Assembly (NCBI RefSeq): GCF_004570385.1
Contig: NZ_SPQL01000016.1
Span: 1-64,000, forward strand
From: Blastococcus sp. CT_GayMR19
GTDB lineage: Bacteria; Actinomycetota; Actinomycetes; Mycobacteriales; Geodermatophilaceae
DNA: 64,000 bases
Direction: 5' to 3'
Below the pieces are notes generated by a model. It was not told where the DNA came from. It did not search any database and was given only the letters and a program-made list of their open reading frames with translations. The translations under genes were made by a program, and so were the position numbers. Of this stretch, positions 10,438-60,363 are shown in pieces; the stretch's first letter is position 1; each line of letters starts with the position of its first letter.

Positions 10438-10577
10438 GATCCGCGGACTGTGAAACTGCCCCCGCTTGGTTGCGCCCAACCGACATGCCGTGACATAACT
10501 GCCTGCGAGGTCGCGACGCGAGCAGCGTGGTCGCGCGCCCGTGCATCCCTGGCGGCATGCCGGGCAGAAGGGCATTC

Positions 10578-13184
10578 GTGAACGACTCCGCAGACGGCAC
10601 GACCGTCGGCGACCCCTCGGTCGGCCATGGCTCGGCCGAGTTGCTGCGCCGCGACGCAGAGCGGACGGACGACGCCCGGCGGATGACGCCCCGCGAGAGC
10701 GGCCCCCAGGGCCTGGAGCGGCTGGCCGAGTTCGCCGCCCGCCTGCTCGGTACGGCGGCGAGCCAGATCTCGCTGCTCGCCGACCAGCAGGTCATCGCCG
10801 CAGGGTTCGGTCTGGCCCCCGGGTCGGTCGGCGCGGTGACCCCGCTCGAGGAGTCGCTCTGCACGGTGACGGCCGCGGCGGACGGGCCCCTGGTCGTGCC
10901 CGACGCCCCGCACGACGGGCGCGTCCAGGATCTCCCGCCCGTCACGTCCGGCCAGGTGGGCTCCTACCTGGGCGCGCACCTGACCGACAAGAACGACCGG
11001 GTGATCGGCACCTTGTGCGTGTTCGGTCCCGACACGCGCCAGTGGTCGGACAGCGACGTCGCCACGCTGCGCCGGCTGGCCGACTCCGTCGTCACCGAAC
11101 TCGAGCTCTCGGCGCTGGTGCGCGAGTACGAGAGCGACCGGCTGCGCTGGGGCCTCGCGGTGGACGCCGCCGGCATCGGCACCTTCGACTGGGACCTCAC
11201 CACCGGGCAGCTGACGTGGGACGACCAGCTGATCGCCATGTTCGGCTACGACGCCGACGGCTTCGACGAGAGCATCGAGGCGTTCAACGCCCGGCTGCAC
11301 CCCGACGACCTGGCGCGCGTCACCGAGGCGCTGCAGGGATGCATCGACAGCTGTGGCGAGTACGAGTCGGAGTACCGCGTCGTCCTGCCGGACGGCGAGA
11401 CCCGCTGGGTGCACGCCCGCGGCCGCGCGCTCTGCGGCACGGACGGCACCGCCGAACGGCTCCTGGGTGCCGCCTTCGACACGACCGGCGAGCGAGCGGG
11501 CGCCGCCCGCGTGACCCGGGTGCTGGAGGCGATGCCGGCCGGCTTCTACAGCCTGGACCGGGAGTGGCGCTTCACCCACGTCAACGCCGAGGCCGAGCGG
11601 CTGCTCGGCCGCACCCGCGAGGATCTGCTCGGCCAGGTGCTCTGGGAAGCCTTCCCGGCTGCGCTGAACAGCATCTTCGACGAGAGCTACCGCAGCGCCG
11701 TCCGCACCGGGCAGCCCGTCTCCTTCGACGCCTACTACCCCGCACCGCTCGACGGCTGGTACGAGCTGCGCGCGTGGCCCAGTCCCGACGGGTTGTCGGT
11801 CTACTTCCTCGAGGTGACCGAGCGCCGGCGCGTGCAGGACCGGGCGGAGCGCTCGGCCCACCGCCTGGCGATCCTGGCCCAGGTCAGCGCCGAGCTCGCC
11901 GGCACCCTGGACGCCCAGTCGGCCGTCGCCCACCTGCCCCGACTGGTCGTCCCGGCGCTGGCCGACTTCTGCATCGTCACCGTGGTCGACCCGGACGGCC
12001 GTCCCCGGGACGTCGGGTCATGGCACTCGGACCCCGCGGGCCGCTCGCTGCTGGCGCGCTACGCCGCCGTCCGGCTGGGATCGATGTCCGCGGTCTCCCC
12101 CCTGGCTCGTGCCCTGGTCAGCGGCGAGATGATCCGTGAACCGATCTCCGCCGTCCTCGACGTGCTCTGGTCCGACGAGGCACGTGAGCTCCTCCAGGTG
12201 CTCGCGCCCGAGACCGCCACCGTGTTCCCCCTACGGGGCCGCGGGCGCACCATGGGCGTCCTGACCATGTACCACCGGCGCGGTTCAGAGGTCACCGACG
12301 AGGACCTCTCCACCGCGCAGGACGTCGCCGACCGGGCCGGGCTGGCCATGGACAACGCCCGGCTCTACGGCGCGCAGCAGCAGCTCGCCGAGGGGCTGCA
12401 GCGCAGCCTGCTCACCGAACCCCCGGAGCCGGACCACGCCGAGATCGCGGTGCGGTACCTGCCCGCGGCCGAGGCCGCCCGGGTCGGCGGGGACTGGTAC
12501 GACGCGTTCCTGCAGCCCGGCGGCACCACGATGCTGGTGATCGGTGACGTCGTCGGCCACGACACCGAGGCGGCGGCCGCCATGGGCCAGCTGCGCGGAC
12601 TCCTGCGTGGCATCGCGACCTATAGCGACGCCGGCCCGGTCGAGGTCCTCCGCGGCCTCGACGCGTCGATGACGACGCTGCAGACGAGGACCCTGGCCAC
12701 CGCCGCCGTCGCCCGGTTCGAGCAGACCCCCGACGAGCTGGCCCGGGGCGTGACCCGCATGCGGTGGGCCAACGCCGGGCACCTGCCGCCGCTGATCATC
12801 AACCCCGACGGGAGCCTCGCCGAGCTGGCCACCTGGAAGGGCGACCTGCTGCTCGGCGTCGACCCGGACACCTGCCGCCGCGAGTCGGTGGTCACCCTCG
12901 ATCGCGGCTCGACCGTCCTGCTCTACACCGACGGGCTCATCGAGCGCCGGGACGCCGACCTCGACGCGGGGCTGGTGCGGCTGCGCGACACCCTCCTCGA
13001 GCTGGCGGACCGCCCGCTGGAGGAGATGCTCGACGAGGTGATCGAGCGGCTCGTGCACGGCCGCCCGGAGGACGACGTCGCCATCGTCGCCGTCCGGCTG
13101 CACCGCCAGGACCTCCCCCGGCCGGCCGAGGCGGGGCCCAACTCGGTGCCCCCGGACGTTCCTCCGCCGCTCGCCCTCGCCTGA
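10578..13184 (+). CDS. GAF-PAS-PAS-GAF-PP2C serine phosphatase (SpoIIE/RsbU type)
   Basis: A multidomain sensory phosphatase of about 868 residues that probably dephosphorylates an anti-sigma-factor antagonist. Order: N-terminal GAF (about 45-180, FAARLLGTAASQISLLAD), PAS-1 (about 190-310, GIGTFDWDLTTGQLTWDDQL...FGYDADG), PAS-2 (about 325-425, AMPAGFYSLDREWRFTHVN), second GAF-like region (about 430-610), and PP2C/SpoIIE catalytic domain (about 630-850). Catalytic signatures are intact: GGDWYDAFL, IGDVVGHD, RWANAGHLPPL, LLYTDGLIERR, EDDVAIVAVR. No membrane segment. GTG 10578 is preferred (AGAAGGG five bases upstream); ATG 10557 and GTG 10527 are alternatives. Its PAS-2-to-end half is closely similar to the protein at 25948-27648. 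Confidence 0.93.
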   Translation: MNDSADGTTVGDPSVGHGSAELLRRDAERTDDARRMTPRESGPQGLERLAEFAARLLGTAASQISLLADQQVIAAGFGLAPGSVGAVTPLEESLCTVTAAADGPLVVPDAPHDGRVQDLPPVTSGQVGSYLGAHLTDKNDRVIGTLCVFGPDTRQWSDSDVATLRRLADSVVTELELSALVREYESDRLRWGLAVDAAGIGTFDWDLTTGQLTWDDQLIAMFGYDADGFDESIEAFNARLHPDDLARVTEALQGCIDSCGEYESEYRVVLPDGETRWVHARGRALCGTDGTAERLLGAAFDTTGERAGAARVTRVLEAMPAGFYSLDREWRFTHVNAEAERLLGRTREDLLGQVLWEAFPAALNSIFDESYRSAVRTGQPVSFDAYYPAPLDGWYELRAWPSPDGLSVYFLEVTERRRVQDRAERSAHRLAILAQVSAELAGTLDAQSAVAHLPRLVVPALADFCIVTVVDPDGRPRDVGSWHSDPAGRSLLARYAAVRLGSMSAVSPLARALVSGEMIREPISAVLDVLWSDEARELLQVLAPETATVFPLRGRGRTMGVLTMYHRRGSEVTDEDLSTAQDVADRAGLAMDNARLYGAQQQLAEGLQRSLLTEPPEPDHAEIAVRYLPAAEAARVGGDWYDAFLQPGGTTMLVIGDVVGHDTEAAAAMGQLRGLLRGIATYSDAGPVEVLRGLDASMTTLQTRTLATAAVARFEQTPDELARGVTRMRWANAGHLPPLIINPDGSLAELATWKGDLLLGVDPDTCRRESVVTLDRGSTVLLYTDGLIERRDADLDAGLVRLRDTLLELADRPLEEMLDEVIERLVHGRPEDDVAIVAVRLHRQDLPRPAEAGPNSVPPDVPPPLALA

Positions 13185-23991: not shown

Positions 23992-25773
23992 TCAGGCCGG
24001 GTGGGGAAGGGCGGCCGGCAGGAGCTCCGGTCCCGCCTCCGCCGGCCGTTCGGCGTCCACCGGGTGGGCCCGGACGGCGAGGACCGCCACGTCGTCCTCC
24101 ACGCCGTCCCCGAGCAGCTCCTCGAGCAGCCGGTCGCACAGCACCGGGAGCGGCAGGTCGGCACAGCGCCGCACGATCTCCCGCACCTGCGCCCGCCCCT
24201 CGTCCAGCGGCACACCCCGGCGCTCGAACAGCCCGTCGGTGAACAGCAGCAGCGTGCTGCCTTCCGGCATGGGGACCAGCCCGTCCACGCGTGGGCCGAG
24301 CCAGCCGATGCCCAGCGGGGGACCGACCGGGACGGCGAGGTCGACGACCGTGCCGTCGGCGCCGAGGAGCATCGGGTCCGGATGGCCGGCCGAGGACCAG
24401 CGCAGCCGGCGCAACCCGGCCGCCCGGTCCTCCCGATTCTGCTCGATGCGGCAGACGAGCGCGGTCGCCAGGGTGGGGATGGCGAGCCCGACGAGCGCGA
24501 GGTCGACGCGCCGCAGCACCCCTGCGGGCTCTTCCAGCCGGTCGTAGGCGATCCCCCGCACGAGGGTCTTCACCTGTCCCATGGCGGCGGCTGCCTCGAT
24601 GTCGTGACCCATCACGTCGCCGATGACCAGCACCGTGTCCCCGTCGGGCTGGAGGAAGGCGTCGTACCAGTCCCCGCCGATCGACACGCCCTGGGTCGCC
24701 GGCCGGTAGCGGACGGCGAGCTCCAGGTGGTCGGGCTGCACGGGAGGCGAGAGCAGGCTCAACTGGAGGCGCTCGGCCACCTGGTTGTTCGCGGCGGCGA
24801 GCCGGGCGTTGTCCAGTGCGAGAGCCGCGCGGCGGGAGGCGATCTCCGCCGTCCGCAGCTCCACCTCGGTGTGCGGTCCACGCTCGGGCTCGTTGATCAG
24901 GGTGAAGCCGCCGATGACCTCGCCGCGGGCCAGGAGCGGGAAGCCCGCGGCTGCGGCCGGCCGCAGCGGGGCCAGCGCCTGCCGGGCCTGCTCGTCGGGG
25001 ACCATGGACAGGACGATCTCCTCCGTCAGCACCGGGAAGACCACCGGCCGGGGGTCGCGGAGCATGCGGGGAACGGGCGCGGTCACGTTGTTGGTCTGCA
25101 CGCGCAGGTCGGCGTAGCGGTTCATCGCGTCGACCAGTGCGGGGTCCTTGTGCGCTCGCCCGACGTCCCGGCGCCTCCCGTCGGGGTCGATGACGCTCAC
25201 CACGCACCAGTCGGCGAGCAGCGGCACGACCAGCTCCGCGAAGCGCTGGACCGCCTCGTCGGTGTCCAGTGTCGAGGTCATGGCCAGGTTGATGTCCCCG
25301 AGCAGCATCAGGTGCCGTCCGGACAACTCGGCCTCGGCAGCAGCCCGTTCCGCGGCCTCGACCGCCACCTCGCGCGCGGCGATGGCTGCGGCGCGCTCCT
25401 CGTCGGCGCGGCGCCGAGCCGTGACGTCGTCGTAAGTGACGACGAGCCCGCCGTCGGTGTGGAAGGCGTCGACCTGGAACCAGCTCTGCAGCGGCTCGTA
25501 CCAGGCCTCGAAGCTGGCCGGCTGCCCCGTGGCCGCGACCCGGCGGTAGTGCTCCTCGAAGGGGCTGTCCACCGTCCCGGGGTACTTCTCCCAGATGACG
25601 CGGCCGACGATCCCGTCGACCCGCTCGCCCAGCAGCGTCGCGCCGGCGGGGTTCATGTAGCTGAACCGCCAGTCGTCGTCCAGGACGAACAGCGGACGCT
25701 CCATGCCCTCGACGGCCTGGAGCAGCAGGTCGCCGGGTGGCGGCACCGCCTCGTCCCGCGTCATGGCGACCAC
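23992..25773 (-). CDS. PAS-GAF-PP2C serine phosphatase (SpoIIE/RsbU type)
   Basis: A 593-residue sensory phosphatase. PAS (about 20-120: AVEGMERPLFVLDDDWRFSYMNPAGATLLG), a short Ala/Glu/Arg-rich coiled coil (about 121-150, ARRRADEERAAAIAAREVAVEAAERA), GAF (about 160-330), then the PP2C domain with GGDWYDAFLQ, VIGDVMGHD, RWSSAGHPDPMLL, LLLFTDGLFERRG and EDDVAVLAVR. The metal-binding acidic residues are present, so it should be active. The start is GTG 25773 (GAGG four bases upstream) or ATG 25764. Transcribed divergently from another PP2C gene, sharing a 174-bp promoter region. Confidence 0.92.
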   Translation of the reverse strand: MVAMTRDEAVPPPGDLLLQAVEGMERPLFVLDDDWRFSYMNPAGATLLGERVDGIVGRVIWEKYPGTVDSPFEEHYRRVAATGQPASFEAWYEPLQSWFQVDAFHTDGGLVVTYDDVTARRRADEERAAAIAAREVAVEAAERAAAEAELSGRHLMLLGDINLAMTSTLDTDEAVQRFAELVVPLLADWCVVSVIDPDGRRRDVGRAHKDPALVDAMNRYADLRVQTNNVTAPVPRMLRDPRPVVFPVLTEEIVLSMVPDEQARQALAPLRPAAAAGFPLLARGEVIGGFTLINEPERGPHTEVELRTAEIASRRAALALDNARLAAANNQVAERLQLSLLSPPVQPDHLELAVRYRPATQGVSIGGDWYDAFLQPDGDTVLVIGDVMGHDIEAAAAMGQVKTLVRGIAYDRLEEPAGVLRRVDLALVGLAIPTLATALVCRIEQNREDRAAGLRRLRWSSAGHPDPMLLGADGTVVDLAVPVGPPLGIGWLGPRVDGLVPMPEGSTLLLFTDGLFERRGVPLDEGRAQVREIVRRCADLPLPVLCDRLLEELLGDGVEDDVAVLAVRAHPVDAERPAEAGPELLPAALPHPA

Positions 25774-25947
25774 TCTGCCTCATCCGGCGCCCGCTGCCGG
25801 TGTTCGGCCGGAAGCCAGGGACGGCGTCCACCCGATCGGGACGGCCGGCGGCGTTCAGGACCTCCTTGGCAGCGGGAGGTGCGGGCGGCCAGAATCACGT
25901 GCCTGGCTCCAGCAGGGGCCCTGCAGAGCCGCAGGCTGGGGGAGGCC

Positions 25948-27648
25948 GTGGACGTCATCCGGGCCGACGCCTGCACCCGGCTGCCGGCCGATACCGGCGG
26001 GGCGTGGGCGGGCGGCACGGGCCCGGACGGCGTGGACCTGGTCCGCATGCTGGACGCGATGCCTGCCGGCTTCTGCCTCCTGGACCCCGAGTGGCGGTTC
26101 CGCTACGTCAACGGCGAGGCGGAGCGGCTGATGCGGCACCGCAGCGAGGAGGTCGTCGGCCGGACGGTGGCCGACATGTATCCGGAGACCGTCGGCAGCG
26201 TCTTCGAGGCGGCGTTCCGCACCGCGATGTGCTCCGGGGAGCCGGTGAGCTTCGAGGCGCCCTACCCGGGTCCGACGGCCGAGGGGTGGCTGGAGGTGCG
26301 CGCCTGGCCGGAGCCGGGCGGTCTCGCCGTCTACTTCCTCGACGTCACCGACCGCGTGCGGGCCGAGGAGGCCGCCCGCCGGGCGACCGGGCGGGCGGCG
26401 CTGCTCGCCTCGGTCACGGCGGAGCTGTCCGGCGCCCTGGACGGCGAGTCCGCGCTCGGGCGGCTGGCGCAGCTCGTCGTCCCCACGCTCGCCGATGGCT
26501 GCATCGTGACCGTCGTCGACCGCGAGGGGCGCGCCCGGGACGTCGGGTCCTGGCACGCGGATCCGCGCCGCCGGGCCATGCTGGAGCGGTACACCGAGAT
26601 CCGCCTGGACACGCTCCCGATGACCTCCCCCGTGGCCCTGGCGCTGCACGCGGGCACCGCCGTGACGGAGTCGGTCACGTCCGTGCTCGACCTCATGCCG
26701 CCGGGGCCGGCGCGCGGGCTCCTGCAGGCGCTCGGCCCGGAGTCCGCTGTGGTCCTCCCCCTGCCCGCGGAGGAGCGGACGGTCGGCGTCCTCACGCTCT
26801 ACCAGGATCCGGGACGCGATCTGGGGGACGACGACCTCGAGACCCTCGGGCAGGTGGCCGTCCAGGCGGGCCGGGCGATCGAGCGCGTGCACCGGCAGAG
26901 CCAGCAGGCCCAGCTGGCCGAGGCCCTCCAGCGCAGCCTGCTCACCGACCCGCCCGAGATCGACGACGCCGCGGTCGTCGTCCGGTACGTGCCGGCCGCC
27001 GAAGCCGCCCGCGTGGGCGGCGACTGGTACGACGCCTTCCTCCAGCGGGACGGCGCGGCCGTGGTCGTGATCGGCGACGTCGTCGGGCACGACACCGCGG
27101 CGGCAGCCGCGATGGGGCAGCTCCGCGGGCTGCTGCGGGGCATCGCCCACTACAGCGGGGCCGGCCCGGCCGAGGTGCTCCGCGGCCTGGACGAGGCCAT
27201 CTGGGACATGCACACCGACACGCTCGCCACGGCGGCCGTCGCCCGCCTCGAGCGCGCCGACGGGAACGGCTGGACCCGTCTCCGGTGGGCCAACGCCGGG
27301 CATCCGCCGCCGTTGCTGCTGAGCCCCGACGGGGACGTGACCGTGCTCGGCGAGCCCGTCGGCGACCTCATGCTGGGCGTCGACCCCGCCGCCGAACGCG
27401 TCGAGACGGTCGTCCCACTGCAGCCCGGGACCGTCGTGCTCCTGTACAGCGACGGGCTGGTCGAGCGTCGCGGCAGCACCATCGACGCGGGCAGCGACCG
27501 ACTGGTCGAGCACCTCCGCGAGCTGGCCGGCCGGCCGCTGGACGACCTCTGCGACGCCCTGCTGCGACGGATGCTGCTCGGCACTCCGGAGGACGACGTC
27601 GCCCTCCTCGCGGTGCGCATCGACCCCCGGGGCGCGGCCTCCTCCTGA
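25948..27648 (+). CDS. PAS-GAF-PP2C serine phosphatase (SpoIIE/RsbU type)
   Basis: A 566-residue phosphatase. PAS (about 30-135: MLDAMPAGFCLLDPEWRFRYVNGEAERLM), GAF-like region (about 145-320), PP2C domain (about 335-555) with GGDWYDAFLQRD, VIGDVVGHD, RWANAGHPPPLLL, LLYSDGLVERRG and EDDVALLAVR. The protein closely tracks the C-terminal two-thirds of the 868-residue phosphatase at 10578-13184 (same AALQRSLLT-type linker, PAAEAARVGGDWYDAFLQ), indicating paralogy. GTG 25948 follows GGGGGAGG closely. It is followed 110 bp later by an RsbW-like gene in the same direction, a plausible partner pair. Confidence 0.92.
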   Translation: MDVIRADACTRLPADTGGAWAGGTGPDGVDLVRMLDAMPAGFCLLDPEWRFRYVNGEAERLMRHRSEEVVGRTVADMYPETVGSVFEAAFRTAMCSGEPVSFEAPYPGPTAEGWLEVRAWPEPGGLAVYFLDVTDRVRAEEAARRATGRAALLASVTAELSGALDGESALGRLAQLVVPTLADGCIVTVVDREGRARDVGSWHADPRRRAMLERYTEIRLDTLPMTSPVALALHAGTAVTESVTSVLDLMPPGPARGLLQALGPESAVVLPLPAEERTVGVLTLYQDPGRDLGDDDLETLGQVAVQAGRAIERVHRQSQQAQLAEALQRSLLTDPPEIDDAAVVVRYVPAAEAARVGGDWYDAFLQRDGAAVVVIGDVVGHDTAAAAAMGQLRGLLRGIAHYSGAGPAEVLRGLDEAIWDMHTDTLATAAVARLERADGNGWTRLRWANAGHPPPLLLSPDGDVTVLGEPVGDLMLGVDPAAERVETVVPLQPGTVVLLYSDGLVERRGSTIDAGSDRLVEHLRELAGRPLDDLCDALLRRMLLGTPEDDVALLAVRIDPRGAASS

Positions 27649-27757: not shown

Positions 27758-28222
27758 ATGGGTCGACACACCTGGCCGCTACGACCGCTGCCGGACGGCC
27801 GCGGGGACGTCTGGCGGTGGAACCTGGCCGAGCTCGCCGAGCTGCCGGCGGCGCGAGCCGGTCTGCGCGGCAGACTCGGCGACGTCGGCTTCCCTGCGGA
27901 CCACGACTCCGAGGATCCGGCGGCGGAACGACTGGTCCTCGCCTTCGACGAGCTGGCGTCCAACGCGCTGCGTCACGGGCAGGTGCCGGTCGTCGCGACG
28001 GTCGTCGCCGGCAGCGGCGGCTGGCTGATCGACGTCAGCGACCGCGCACCCGAGTCGATGCCCGCCCCCGCGGTCGACCGCGACCCGGCGCTCGGCGGGA
28101 TGGGCCTGCACCTCGTGGCCCGGCTGTCGGTGGCGCACGGCTGGTACGTGGACGGCGGCGCCAAGCACGTCTGGGCCTGCCTGCCGTCGATCATCCGGGA
28201 CCGCGAGCCCGCCCTGGCCTGA
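27758..28222 (+). CDS. RsbW-like ATP-binding protein (anti-sigma factor/serine kinase fold)
   Basis: A 154-residue single-domain GHKL ATPase. The N-box is AFDELASNALRHG, the G1 box is IDVSDRAPES and the G2 box GGMGLHLVARLS, matching the RsbW/SpoIIAB-type HATPase_c_2 family widespread in actinobacteria. Such proteins phosphorylate a STAS-domain antagonist and/or bind a sigma factor; no STAS or sigma gene is adjacent, so its partner is encoded elsewhere. A strong run of G with GGAGG precedes ATG 27758. The PP2C gene upstream could reverse its kinase reaction. It converges on the chemotaxis operon. Confidence 0.88.
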   Translation: MGRHTWPLRPLPDGRGDVWRWNLAELAELPAARAGLRGRLGDVGFPADHDSEDPAAERLVLAFDELASNALRHGQVPVVATVVAGSGGWLIDVSDRAPESMPAPAVDRDPALGGMGLHLVARLSVAHGWYVDGGAKHVWACLPSIIRDREPALA

Positions 28223-57341: not shown

Positions 57342-57491
57342 GGCGGTTCCTCCACTTGCGACGGCGCGGGCCCCTGACGAGGACGGACACCTCCGGGCCT
57401 TCCCCGTACCAACGCGGTCCACACCCGGTCGGTGCCCGACCTGCAGCAGGTCTCGTGCATGGAACCGGTGGCACGCGGTTAAATTGCCTGT

Positions 57492-59828
57492 GTGCCGCCC
57501 GTGAGCGACCGTGCCAGCACCTCCTCCGTCCCTGCCCGGGCGGTGGAGGCCGCCGTCGAACTCGCCGCCCGGCCCGCCGCCTCGACGCTGGTGGACGCCG
57601 AGCGCGAGCTCGGGCAGCAGGCGGGCATCGTCACGGCCGCCAGCGCCGCCGTCTCCGGCTCCACGAGCCCCGCCGGTGCGCACGCGGTCCTGCCCGGGGT
57701 GCTCGCCGACGTCCCGGTTGCCGTCCTGGTCATCGACCAGGAGGCCGGCGCGGTGATGTACGCCAACGTTGCCGCCGTCGAGCTCGCGGGCAACATCACG
57801 CTCCCCGTGGACATCGACACCTGGGGCGCGGCGGCCGGGCTCACCGATCTCTCCGGTGCCCCGCTGGCCAGCACGACCGGCCCGCTCTCGCTCGTCGCCC
57901 AGGGCCGTCCGCTCACCGGTGAGGCCGTGCGGCTGGCCCCCGGCCGGAGCACCGAGCGGGAGCGGGCCGACGCCGACGACGGGCAGGACGACCAGCTGCT
58001 GTGGGTCACCGGCTTCCCCCTGACGCAGGTGGGCAGCGGCCAGCAGCTGGCGCTCGTGGTGTTCATGCAGCTCGATCCCGCGGACGAGACCAGCGACCCG
58101 GCGGCCTACCTCCAGGCGCTCCGCGAGCGGGCCGTCATCGCCACCGACATCACCTTCACGATCACCGACCCCCGCGAGCCCGACCATCCGCTGGTCTGGG
58201 TCAACCCCTCCTTCACCCGCGTCACCGGGTACGAGGCCGACGAGGCCATCGGCCGGAACTGCCGCTTCCTCCAGGGCCCGGCCACGGATCCCGCCGTGGT
58301 CGCCGGCATCCGCGCGGCGATCGAGGAACGGCGTCCCCACACGGCAACGCTGCTGAACTACCGCAAGGACGGCACGGCGTTCTGGAACCAGCTGTCGATC
58401 AGCCCGGTCTTCGACGGCAACAGCGACCTCGTCAGCTTCGTCGGGGTGCAGATCGACGTCACCGAGCGCGTCCGGGTGGAGCACGACCGCGAGTCCGCCT
58501 TCGCCGCCGAGCAGGCGGCTCGCCAGGACGCGGAACTGGCCCGCGCGGTCGCGGAGCGGGCGCGGGCCGACGCCGAGCGGGCACAGAGCCGGCTGGCGCT
58601 GATGGCCGAGGCCACCAGCGCGCTGATCGCCACCCTCGACATGACCGAGCTGCTCGACCGCCTCGCCGGGTTGTGCGTGCCCCGGCTGGCCGACTGGGTC
58701 TTCCTGACCCTGGTCGACCAGTACGGCCAGGTGCGGGAGACCGCCGCCCGCCATCGCGACGGGCGGGAGAGCGACCTGGAGGTCATCGCCCGGCACAGCC
58801 GGCACCTGCCGCCCCGGTCCCCGAGCCGGCGGACCATCGCCAGCGCGCGGCCGGTGCTCCTCGAGGACATCACACCCGACGTCCTGCGGGACGTGATCGG
58901 CGACCCCGAGGTGGTGGCGGCGTTCCAGCGGCTGGGCGGCACGACGACGCTGACCGTGCCGATGGTGGCCCGGCGGCGCACCCTGGGCGCCCTCGCCCTG
59001 GTCCGGGCCGACGCCGGGACGTTCACCCGGGAAGAGATCGACCTGGCCGAGGACCTCGCCGCGCGGGCGGCGCTGGCGATGGACAACGTGCGGCTCTACC
59101 AGCAGGAGCACACGGTGGCCGACACCCTGCAGCGGTCGCTGCTGCCGGTGCTGCCGGAGATCCCCGGCATCGAGTCCGCCGCCCACTACGTCAGCGCCTC
59201 GACGGCGGCGGAGGTCGGTGGGGACTTCTACGACCTGCTGCAGCTCCCCGACGGGTCGGTGGGCATGGCCATCGGGGACGTCGTCGGCCACGACGTCGCC
59301 GCGGCGGCGGCGATGGGTCACCTGCGGGGCGTCCTGCGCGCGGTCGTCTGGGAGGCCGTGGACGGCGATCCCGGCTCGGTGCTGGCCCGCGTGGACCGGC
59401 TCGTGCAGGGGCTGCAGGTGGCGTCGCTGGCGACGATGGTCTACGCGCGGGCCGAGCGGCCCGCCCGCGCGGGCGCCCCGTGGCGGGTGCACGTCGCCAA
59501 CGCCGGGCACCCGCCGCTCCTGCTGCGTGCGCCGTCGGGCGCCGTCCGCCTCGTCGACGGCGTGACCGGCCTGCTCGTGGGCGTGGACGTCACGGCCCAC
59601 CGCGAGACGCTCACCGTCGAGGTGCCCAGCGGCTCCACGCTGATCGCCTACACCGACGGGCTGATCGAGCGCCCCGGCCTGGACCTGGATCAGGGCATCG
59701 TCGAGCTCTGCGCGCGGATCGCCGCCACGGCGCCGGACACCGGTCCCCGGGCGTTGTGCGACGCCGCCGTCAGCGGGGCGCTGGACCACCGGGACGACGT
59801 GGCGCTGCTCGCCGTCCGCTTCGGCTGA
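57492..59828 (+). CDS. LOV-domain blue-light-regulated PP2C serine phosphatase
   Basis: 778 residues: an N-terminal PAS-like region (about 60-195), a canonical LOV domain (about 215-325), a coiled-coil linker (about 330-365, EQAARQDAELARAVAERARADAERAQ), GAF (about 365-545) and SpoIIE/PP2C (about 560-778). The LOV core has GRNCRFLQG with photoactive Cys257, flavin contacts Asn289 (NYRKDG) and Asn299 (FWNQLSISP), and the signalling Gln320 (FVGVQIDVT): all key residues intact. PP2C motifs GGDFYDLLQ, IGDVVGHD, NAGHPPLLL, AYTDGLIE and DDVALLAVR are also complete. So blue light probably controls dephosphorylation of a STAS-type anti-anti-sigma protein. GTG 57492. Confidence 0.94.
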   Translation: MPPVSDRASTSSVPARAVEAAVELAARPAASTLVDAERELGQQAGIVTAASAAVSGSTSPAGAHAVLPGVLADVPVAVLVIDQEAGAVMYANVAAVELAGNITLPVDIDTWGAAAGLTDLSGAPLASTTGPLSLVAQGRPLTGEAVRLAPGRSTERERADADDGQDDQLLWVTGFPLTQVGSGQQLALVVFMQLDPADETSDPAAYLQALRERAVIATDITFTITDPREPDHPLVWVNPSFTRVTGYEADEAIGRNCRFLQGPATDPAVVAGIRAAIEERRPHTATLLNYRKDGTAFWNQLSISPVFDGNSDLVSFVGVQIDVTERVRVEHDRESAFAAEQAARQDAELARAVAERARADAERAQSRLALMAEATSALIATLDMTELLDRLAGLCVPRLADWVFLTLVDQYGQVRETAARHRDGRESDLEVIARHSRHLPPRSPSRRTIASARPVLLEDITPDVLRDVIGDPEVVAAFQRLGGTTTLTVPMVARRRTLGALALVRADAGTFTREEIDLAEDLAARAALAMDNVRLYQQEHTVADTLQRSLLPVLPEIPGIESAAHYVSASTAAEVGGDFYDLLQLPDGSVGMAIGDVVGHDVAAAAAMGHLRGVLRAVVWEAVDGDPGSVLARVDRLVQGLQVASLATMVYARAERPARAGAPWRVHVANAGHPPLLLRAPSGAVRLVDGVTGLLVGVDVTAHRETLTVEVPSGSTLIAYTDGLIERPGLDLDQGIVELCARIAATAPDTGPRALCDAAVSGALDHRDDVALLAVRFG

Positions 59829-59853: not shown

Positions 59854-60363
59854 TCAGGCCTCGGTGCGGAGCAGTCCGTAGGCGCCGCGGTGGAACAGCA
59901 GCGGACGGCGTTCGGGATGCGCGCCGAGGTCCAGGACGCGCGCGACGGCGAGCGTGTGGTCGCCGCCGTCGTACTCGGCCCACAGCTCCCCGTCGATCCA
60001 GGCGACGATGTCGGAGAGGACCGGTGAGCCGTGGGCGCTCGGCGTCCAGGGCATCCCGGCGAACTTGTCCGGCGCGGAGCGGGCGAAGTTCTGCGAGACG
60101 GCGTCCTGCCCCTCCGCCAGCACGTTCACGCAGAACCGGCCGATCTCGCGCAGCCGCGGCCACGTGCGGGAGGTGCGCGCGGGAGCGAAGGCGACCAGCG
60201 GCGGATCGAGGGACAGCGAGCTGAACGCCTGGCAGGTGAAGCCGATCGGCCCCTCCGCGGTGACCGCGGTGACGACGGTGACCCCCGAGGCGAAGTGCCC
60301 GAGCACGTCGCGCAGCAACGATGGGTCGACGATCCGCTGCGGTCCTCCCTCGGAATCGCTCAT
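59854..60363 (-). CDS. Flavin reductase-like FMN-binding split-barrel protein
   Basis: 169 residues. LLRDVLGHFASGVTVVTAVTAEGPIGFTCQAFSSLSLDPPLVAFAPARTSRTW is the classic HpaC/flavin-reductase opening; later VNVLAEGQDAVSQNFARSAPDKFAG and AWIDGELWAEYDGGDHTLAVARV complete the split barrel. Reduces FMN or FAD with NAD(P)H, usually for a partner monooxygenase, which is not in the window. ATG 60363 overlaps the stop of the upstream lyase gene (ATGA), so the two are co-translated. Confidence 0.9.
   Translation of the reverse strand: MSDSEGGPQRIVDPSLLRDVLGHFASGVTVVTAVTAEGPIGFTCQAFSSLSLDPPLVAFAPARTSRTWPRLREIGRFCVNVLAEGQDAVSQNFARSAPDKFAGMPWTPSAHGSPVLSDIVAWIDGELWAEYDGGDHTLAVARVLDLGAHPERRPLLFHRGAYGLLRTEA

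Follow-up and report, generated by a model that had tools for sequence, protein, structure and literature searches.

A LOV photosensor joined to a SpoIIE-type phosphatase in a Blastococcus-like actinobacterium: a whole-heptad linker and a candidate SigF partner switch

LOV-SpoIIE proteins were named as a typical LOV output class in 2014 (PMC4844311). Such photoreceptors carry a LOV photosensor and a SpoIIE-type PP2C phosphatase in one chain. In the literature that we searched, which covered few subscription papers, we found no member with a tested light-dependent phosphatase activity or a known target. The protein described here is of this already-known kind, to which it adds a PAS domain in front and a GAF domain between LOV and PP2C. 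What we contribute is a heptad rule in its clade and a link to SigF. RsbP and RsbU of Bacillus subtilis resemble it in joining a PAS or other sensor through a helical linker to a SpoIIE-type PP2C, with an RsbV-type substrate expected. However, the RsbP PAS is not a photoactive LOV domain, whereas the input here is PAS-LOV-GAF, and we saw neither RsbQ nor RsbT as a partner. Control by crossing helices has been demonstrated for RsbU and is predicted for RsbP and other PP2Cs (PMC12143880). Rv1364c of Mycobacterium tuberculosis (PAS-PP2C-RsbW-STAS) shares an expected SigF-type target and contains the closest solved PP2C, its RsbU domain (3ke6, 30% identity by Foldseek with the full model). Unlike Rv1364c, our protein has a LOV domain and no fused RsbW or STAS. 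A further likeness to the mycobacterial SigF partner switch lies in the genome, where a PP2C-RsbW-STAS fusion adjoins rsbW-sigF. As of 2020, the phosphatase that acts on RsfB, the mycobacterial SigF antagonist, was still unpublished, with mention of unshown data for MSMEG_6131 (PMC7693655). Finally, YtvA of B. subtilis (LOV-STAS, acting on sigma-B) feeds a LOV input into a sigma partner-switch stress pathway, as predicted here, and the YtvA family model matches our LOV domain locally. The output here is a phosphatase, rather than a STAS domain in the stressosome.

The gene lies in the genome of a soil actinobacterium close to Blastococcus, within a stretch of 64,000 nucleotides that was analyzed as a whole and that we call the window. 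Its features are:

57480..57485, plus strand: -10-like TAAATT, six bases 5' of the GTG; TANNNT is kept in homologues
57492..59828, plus strand: PAS-LOV-GAF-PP2C gene, an open reading frame of 778 aa with a GTG start
57699..58091, plus strand: N-terminal PAS-fold domain, aa 70-200 (partial Pfam PAS_8, AlphaFold model, Foldseek)
58131..58466, plus strand: LOV domain, aa 214-325 (NCBIfam, solved relatives, AlphaFold with 0.6 A rmsd to 3t50)
58260..58262, plus strand: TGC codon of Cys257, predicted to form the adduct (Cys in 78/79 alignment rows)
58461..58628, plus strand: continuous LOV-to-GAF signaling helix, aa 324-379 (AlphaFold helix; length 5 modulo 7 in 90 homologues)
58635..59084, plus strand: GAF domain, aa 382-531 (GAF_2, E 2e-10, above cut-off)
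59028..59141, plus strand: second helix, GAF to PP2C, aa 513-550 (AlphaFold helix)
59169..59822, plus strand: SpoIIE/RsbU-type PP2C domain, aa 560-777 (Pfam SpoIIE, E 9.8e-39)

The start at GTG 57492 is backed by the TAAATT six bases 5' of it and by the same TANNNT in homologues. Specifically, TANNNT stands 6-7 bases 5' of the GTG in 42 of 51 main-clade homologues, versus 3 of the 1072 GTGs in the window, a count that leans upward because the motif helped to choose the start in some homologues. The distance is exactly six bases in 31 homologues, many of which have a frame that opens just upstream. Judged from sequence, this spacing suggests a leaderless transcript. A pattern search in the window revealed no SigF-type promoter 5' of the gene.

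An earlier note on this DNA had described an intact LOV photoreceptor fused to a SpoIIE-type phosphatase, with a PAS-like domain preceding the LOV and a GAF domain separating it from the phosphatase, and its account of the architecture is borne out. The frame is exact in ends, strand, length, and start codon, and GRNCRFLQG (254-262) with Cys257, along with the predicted flavin contacts Asn289 and Asn299 and the signaling residue Gln320, is where the note had placed it. All four residues are invariant or nearly so among 78 named homologues. The adduct-loop Cys is missing from a single row of the alignment (L156), which is in the wrong frame and was excluded; one further row (L148) was left out. 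NCBIfam families that contain LOV domains match residues ~208-347 (E 1e-42 to 1e-45), the best solved relatives reach E 1e-34 to 1e-33, and Pfam places PAS families over the region. The note had also proposed structural modeling of the LOV region. The AlphaFold model, with pLDDT ~93 across most of the domain, has the LOV fold and superimposes on 3t50 and CagFbFP to within 0.6-0.9 A. The protein falls outside two described LOV families: it scores 145 of the 250 bits required for YtvA (LOV-STAS) and lacks the C-terminal STAS, and it scores 144 of the 450 bits required for blue-light histidine kinases (LOV-HK) and has no kinase domain.

The remaining domains are equally recognizable. Pfam PAS_8 covers the front domain partially (72-106), the LOV cysteine motif is absent from it, and residues 44-214, modeled separately with AlphaFold, match no folds other than PAS/LOV in Foldseek (probability ~1.00, E ~1e-3). 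In the PP2C domain, the Pfam SpoIIE model scores 133.7 bits against a cut-off of 25 on residues 586-777, and GGDFYD (576-581), GDVVGHD (595-601), YTDG (720-723), and DD (768-769) are all present. Residues D578, D596, H600, D601, D722, D768, and D769 are invariant or nearly so among the 78 homologues. The metal ligands of SpoIIE, D628/G629/D746/D795 (PMC5468089), have D596/V597/D722/D768-D769 as their counterparts. The AlphaFold model of the whole monomer, built from 48 window-plus-locus sequences, has a mean pLDDT of 84.6, with residues 1-69 below 50; its pTM is 0.52, and therefore the relative placement of the domains is not to be trusted. Searched with Foldseek, the full model matches the LOV-PAS of Brucella LOV-HK as well as 3ke6.

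In that monomer model, an unbroken helix runs from the end of the LOV domain to residue 379, and another, 513-550, enters the PP2C domain. These helices, and linker steps of whole heptads, would suit a putatively dimeric helical link between the sensors and the phosphatase. In distinct homologues, we took linker length as the distance between the end of LOV and a fixed motif where GAF begins. Eight lengths were found (5, 19, 26, 33, 40, 47, 54, and 61), and all 90 homologues fit a length of 5 modulo 7; a few homologues lacked a recognizable LOV end or anchor and went unscored, with the readable ones among them fitting by eye count. Unlike the linker, the PAS-LOV, GAF, and PP2C distances differ by single residues. 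Linker length changed at least 16 times on a tree from which the linker had been left out, and the window copy has 40 residues versus 47 in its nearest relatives, L095 and L096. Variation by whole heptads only implies, on the sequence evidence, that the LOV-GAF helix signals as a coiled-coil held in fixed phase. Slippage of a 21-base repeat could lie partly behind the steps. Other LOV proteins, as well as phytochrome cyclases, are already known to follow heptad rules (PMC9587094). In particular, PadC-type light-regulated diguanylate cyclases also have a sensor-effector coiled-coil that varies in multiples of seven; there, -4 and +2 families exist (PMC9587094), whereas here the rule has no exceptions (0/90) and the effector is a PP2C with a GAF domain intervening. 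Light-controlled phosphatases could be designed with this rule as a template.

The earlier note had called the extra PAS and GAF domains unusual, a judgment that did not survive comparison with relatives. A near full-length orthologue with at least 63% identity is present in 28 of the 37 Geodermatophilaceae genomes searched; one more genome has the orthologue in two pieces and eight are without it. The named scan found 79 loci in Blastococcus, Geodermatophilus, Modestobacter, Klenkia, Goekera, and Trujillonella, and it also reached Pseudonocardia, Kineococcus, Cellulomonas, Quadrisphaera, and others. Retrieval leans slightly toward intact LOV domains, because the LOV motif KDGTAFWN lay within one of six patterns used for the search. 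The PAS-LOV-GAF-PP2C layout is kept across Geodermatophilaceae and in the last four genera named, so the two additional domains are old in the clade rather than specific to this gene. Moreover, PAS-GAF-PP2C without LOV recurs among the 16 SpoIIE phosphatases of the genome. Mean identity in the main clade is 0.80 for LOV, 0.72 for PP2C, 0.67 for PAS, and 0.58 for GAF, and the best conserved segment is the PP2C-proximal linker, 532-559 (0.85).

Around the gene, synteny in Geodermatophilaceae extends to genes for asparagine synthase, an aldo/keto reductase, two small membrane proteins, a Gly-rich protein, flavin-reductase-like and HMG-CoA-lyase-like proteins, a PAS-GGDEF protein, and an MMPL protein. 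Neither the window gene nor its syntenic orthologues have a recognized STAS, RsbW, or sigma gene within 10 kb, and a partner-switch gene in cis was rejected, as none of the syntenic flanking genes is of that type. In most Geodermatophilaceae loci, the flavin-reductase-like gene (window 59854-60363, minus strand) and the LOV gene are arranged tail-to-tail; the former was set aside as a functional partner, and we leave the arrangement as shared synteny only. Klenkia and Modestobacter have second LOV-PP2C paralogues with a convergent HATPase_c_2-like gene alongside (L143:12114-12833, L145:12155-12781), and a gene of this type is also found near the LOV-PP2C genes of three further relatives (L196, L197, L202).

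The neighborhoods of Pseudonocardia relatives are of another kind. In P. kujensis, P. halophobica, P. autotrophica, and P. humida, the LOV-PP2C gene stands head-to-head with rsbV, rsbW, and a gene for a SigB/F/G-type sigma factor; the LOV-PP2C proteins of P. halophobica and P. autotrophica are identical. The same head-to-head cassette occurs in one further genome of the same order (G269, 61% identical) and in a Pseudonocardiaceae MAG, and it is not beside a close Pseudonocardia-like homologue (G287). Each cassette product leads back to one place in the Blastococcus-like genome, on contig C42. The sigma factor matches C42:155902-156633 with 60% identity (next match ~31%), and this C42 protein passes the SigBFG cut-off and is the only SigB/F/G-type sigma factor found in the genome. 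The only match of the cassette RsbW is C42:157080-157376 (48%), and the best match of the STAS protein is that encoded at 160711-160998 of the same contig (70-72 bits; next ~56 in all frames). Thus, the best matches of the rsbV, rsbW, and sigF products share a single 5-kb region, C42:155.9-161.0 kb. An exact SigF-type promoter precedes the C42 rsbW, where 0.01 would be expected in that 10-kb locus; genome-wide, the exact pattern has 5 matches versus 2 for its reversal. C42:155899-161000 is likely the SigF partner-switch region of the genome. These neighborhoods and the matching sigF region support the sigma-factor partner switch that the earlier note had predicted. SigF itself is present in nearly all relatives, including genomes without the LOV protein; therefore, its co-occurrence with that protein is not diagnostic, and we rejected it as evidence.

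Regarding organization, C42:155899-161000 (L179) comprises rsbW-sigF, a divergent gene for a PP2C-RsbW-STAS fusion (625 aa, Rv1364c-like), and rsbV (L179:7203-7652, minus strand) ~3 kb off. GHKL kinases usually carry ExxxN. The RsbW encoded beside sigF, both here and in Pseudonocardia, reads VDEACATL, which we take to lack the Mg-binding Asn, and the C42 fusion reads GEACANAAEHA. Therefore, RsbV may be phosphorylated by the fusion or by another RsbW and not by the sigF-adjacent one. RsfB of M. smegmatis is phosphorylated by RsbW2 and not by the SigF-adjacent RsbW1 (PMC7693655).

We propose that the protein is a blue-light-gated general-stress phosphatase that acts through an RsbV-type STAS protein, RsbW, and SigF, a reading to which we assign a probability of about 0.55. 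At the sequence level it draws on the intact domains, the heptad-quantized linker, the cassette beside homologues, and the matching sigF region in trans. The LOV domain, which we predict binds flavin and undergoes a photocycle, would form a Cys257-FMN adduct in blue light. The change would then pass along a putatively dimeric coiled-coil to the GAF domain, through the second helix, and into the alpha0-alpha2 switch of a PP2C pair; the PAS and GAF domains presumably sense further inputs. The PP2C, once active, would dephosphorylate its candidate substrate, RsbV~P, and the dephosphorylated RsbV would capture RsbW and free the SigF-type sigma factor. The most likely partners in the genome are those of C42:155.9-161.0 kb. 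We infer the mechanism as a whole with moderate confidence.

The target, however, may be another STAS protein, because the genome has 16 SpoIIE PP2C matches and 15 STAS matches above the cut-off. We consider it unlikely, if worth keeping in view, that the protein is a light-regulated PP2C directed at such a STAS protein, or at a STAS-regulated process other than transcription, rather than at the C42 set. Those numbers stand against a single SigBFG sigma factor, the Geodermatophilaceae loci have no partner in cis, and it is HATPase_c_2, not sigF, that adjoins the Klenkia and Modestobacter paralogues and the genes of the three further relatives. Nevertheless, the only sigma-linked neighborhoods found are rsbV-rsbW-sigF, and the best matches of all three of their proteins fall in one region of the genome, which favors the SigF assignment. 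Improbable in our estimation is an inversion of the logic with the same partners, in which the phosphatase is active in the dark and blue light turns it off. Polarity is unreadable from sequence, and a dark-on/light-off LOV kinase, RT-HK, exists (PMC12148442); we prefer a light-on phosphatase only because most characterized LOV enzymes are light-on (PMC12148442). Last, it is very improbable that the LOV domain, though intact, is mainly a redox/flavin or dimerization module, with PAS or GAF ligands setting the output and light a minor influence: PAS-GAF-PP2C proteins without LOV are common in the genome and the GAF and PAS domains are more variable and input-like, but every correctly framed homologue keeps the adduct Cys and Gln320, which a redox-only LOV would not need, and the strict heptad phase begins right at the LOV end.

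If the SigF reading is true, the general stress response that actinobacteria run through SigF would take blue light as a direct input. The Pseudonocardia cassette and the matching C42 set supply a concrete candidate substrate and sigma factor. It is possible, and we put it forward tentatively, that in Geodermatophilaceae and Pseudonocardia one soluble protein turns blue light directly into SigF release, through a whole-heptad coiled-coil despite the intervening GAF domain. The protein would then be a natural light-driven phosphatase, possibly reaching pigment genes as in M. smegmatis, where SigF controls carotenoid pigment (PMC4694148). In Blastococcus, a link between SigF and pigment is unsupported: of the five exact SigF matches in the genome, none is on the carotenoid contig (C14) or near C26:313.9 kb. 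The pattern is strict, and a missing match near carotenoid genes is therefore a weak negative. At C26:310792-315430 (L228), a PAS-GAF-PP2C gene lies upstream of a gene of the crtI family, ~1.3 kb away.

We found just one other LOV domain in this genome (L048, C36:226085-226405, minus strand); it belongs to an EAL...LOV-GGDEF-like protein of ~756 aa in which NCRFLQG is intact; its domains were assigned by eye. The window itself encodes further PAS/GAF-PP2C phosphatases at 10527-13184 (plus strand), 23992-25773 (minus strand), and 25879-27648 (plus strand). Directly 3' of the last of these, a small HATPase_c_2 (RsbW-like) gene occupies 27758-28222 (plus strand), and the two form a possible phosphatase-kinase pair.
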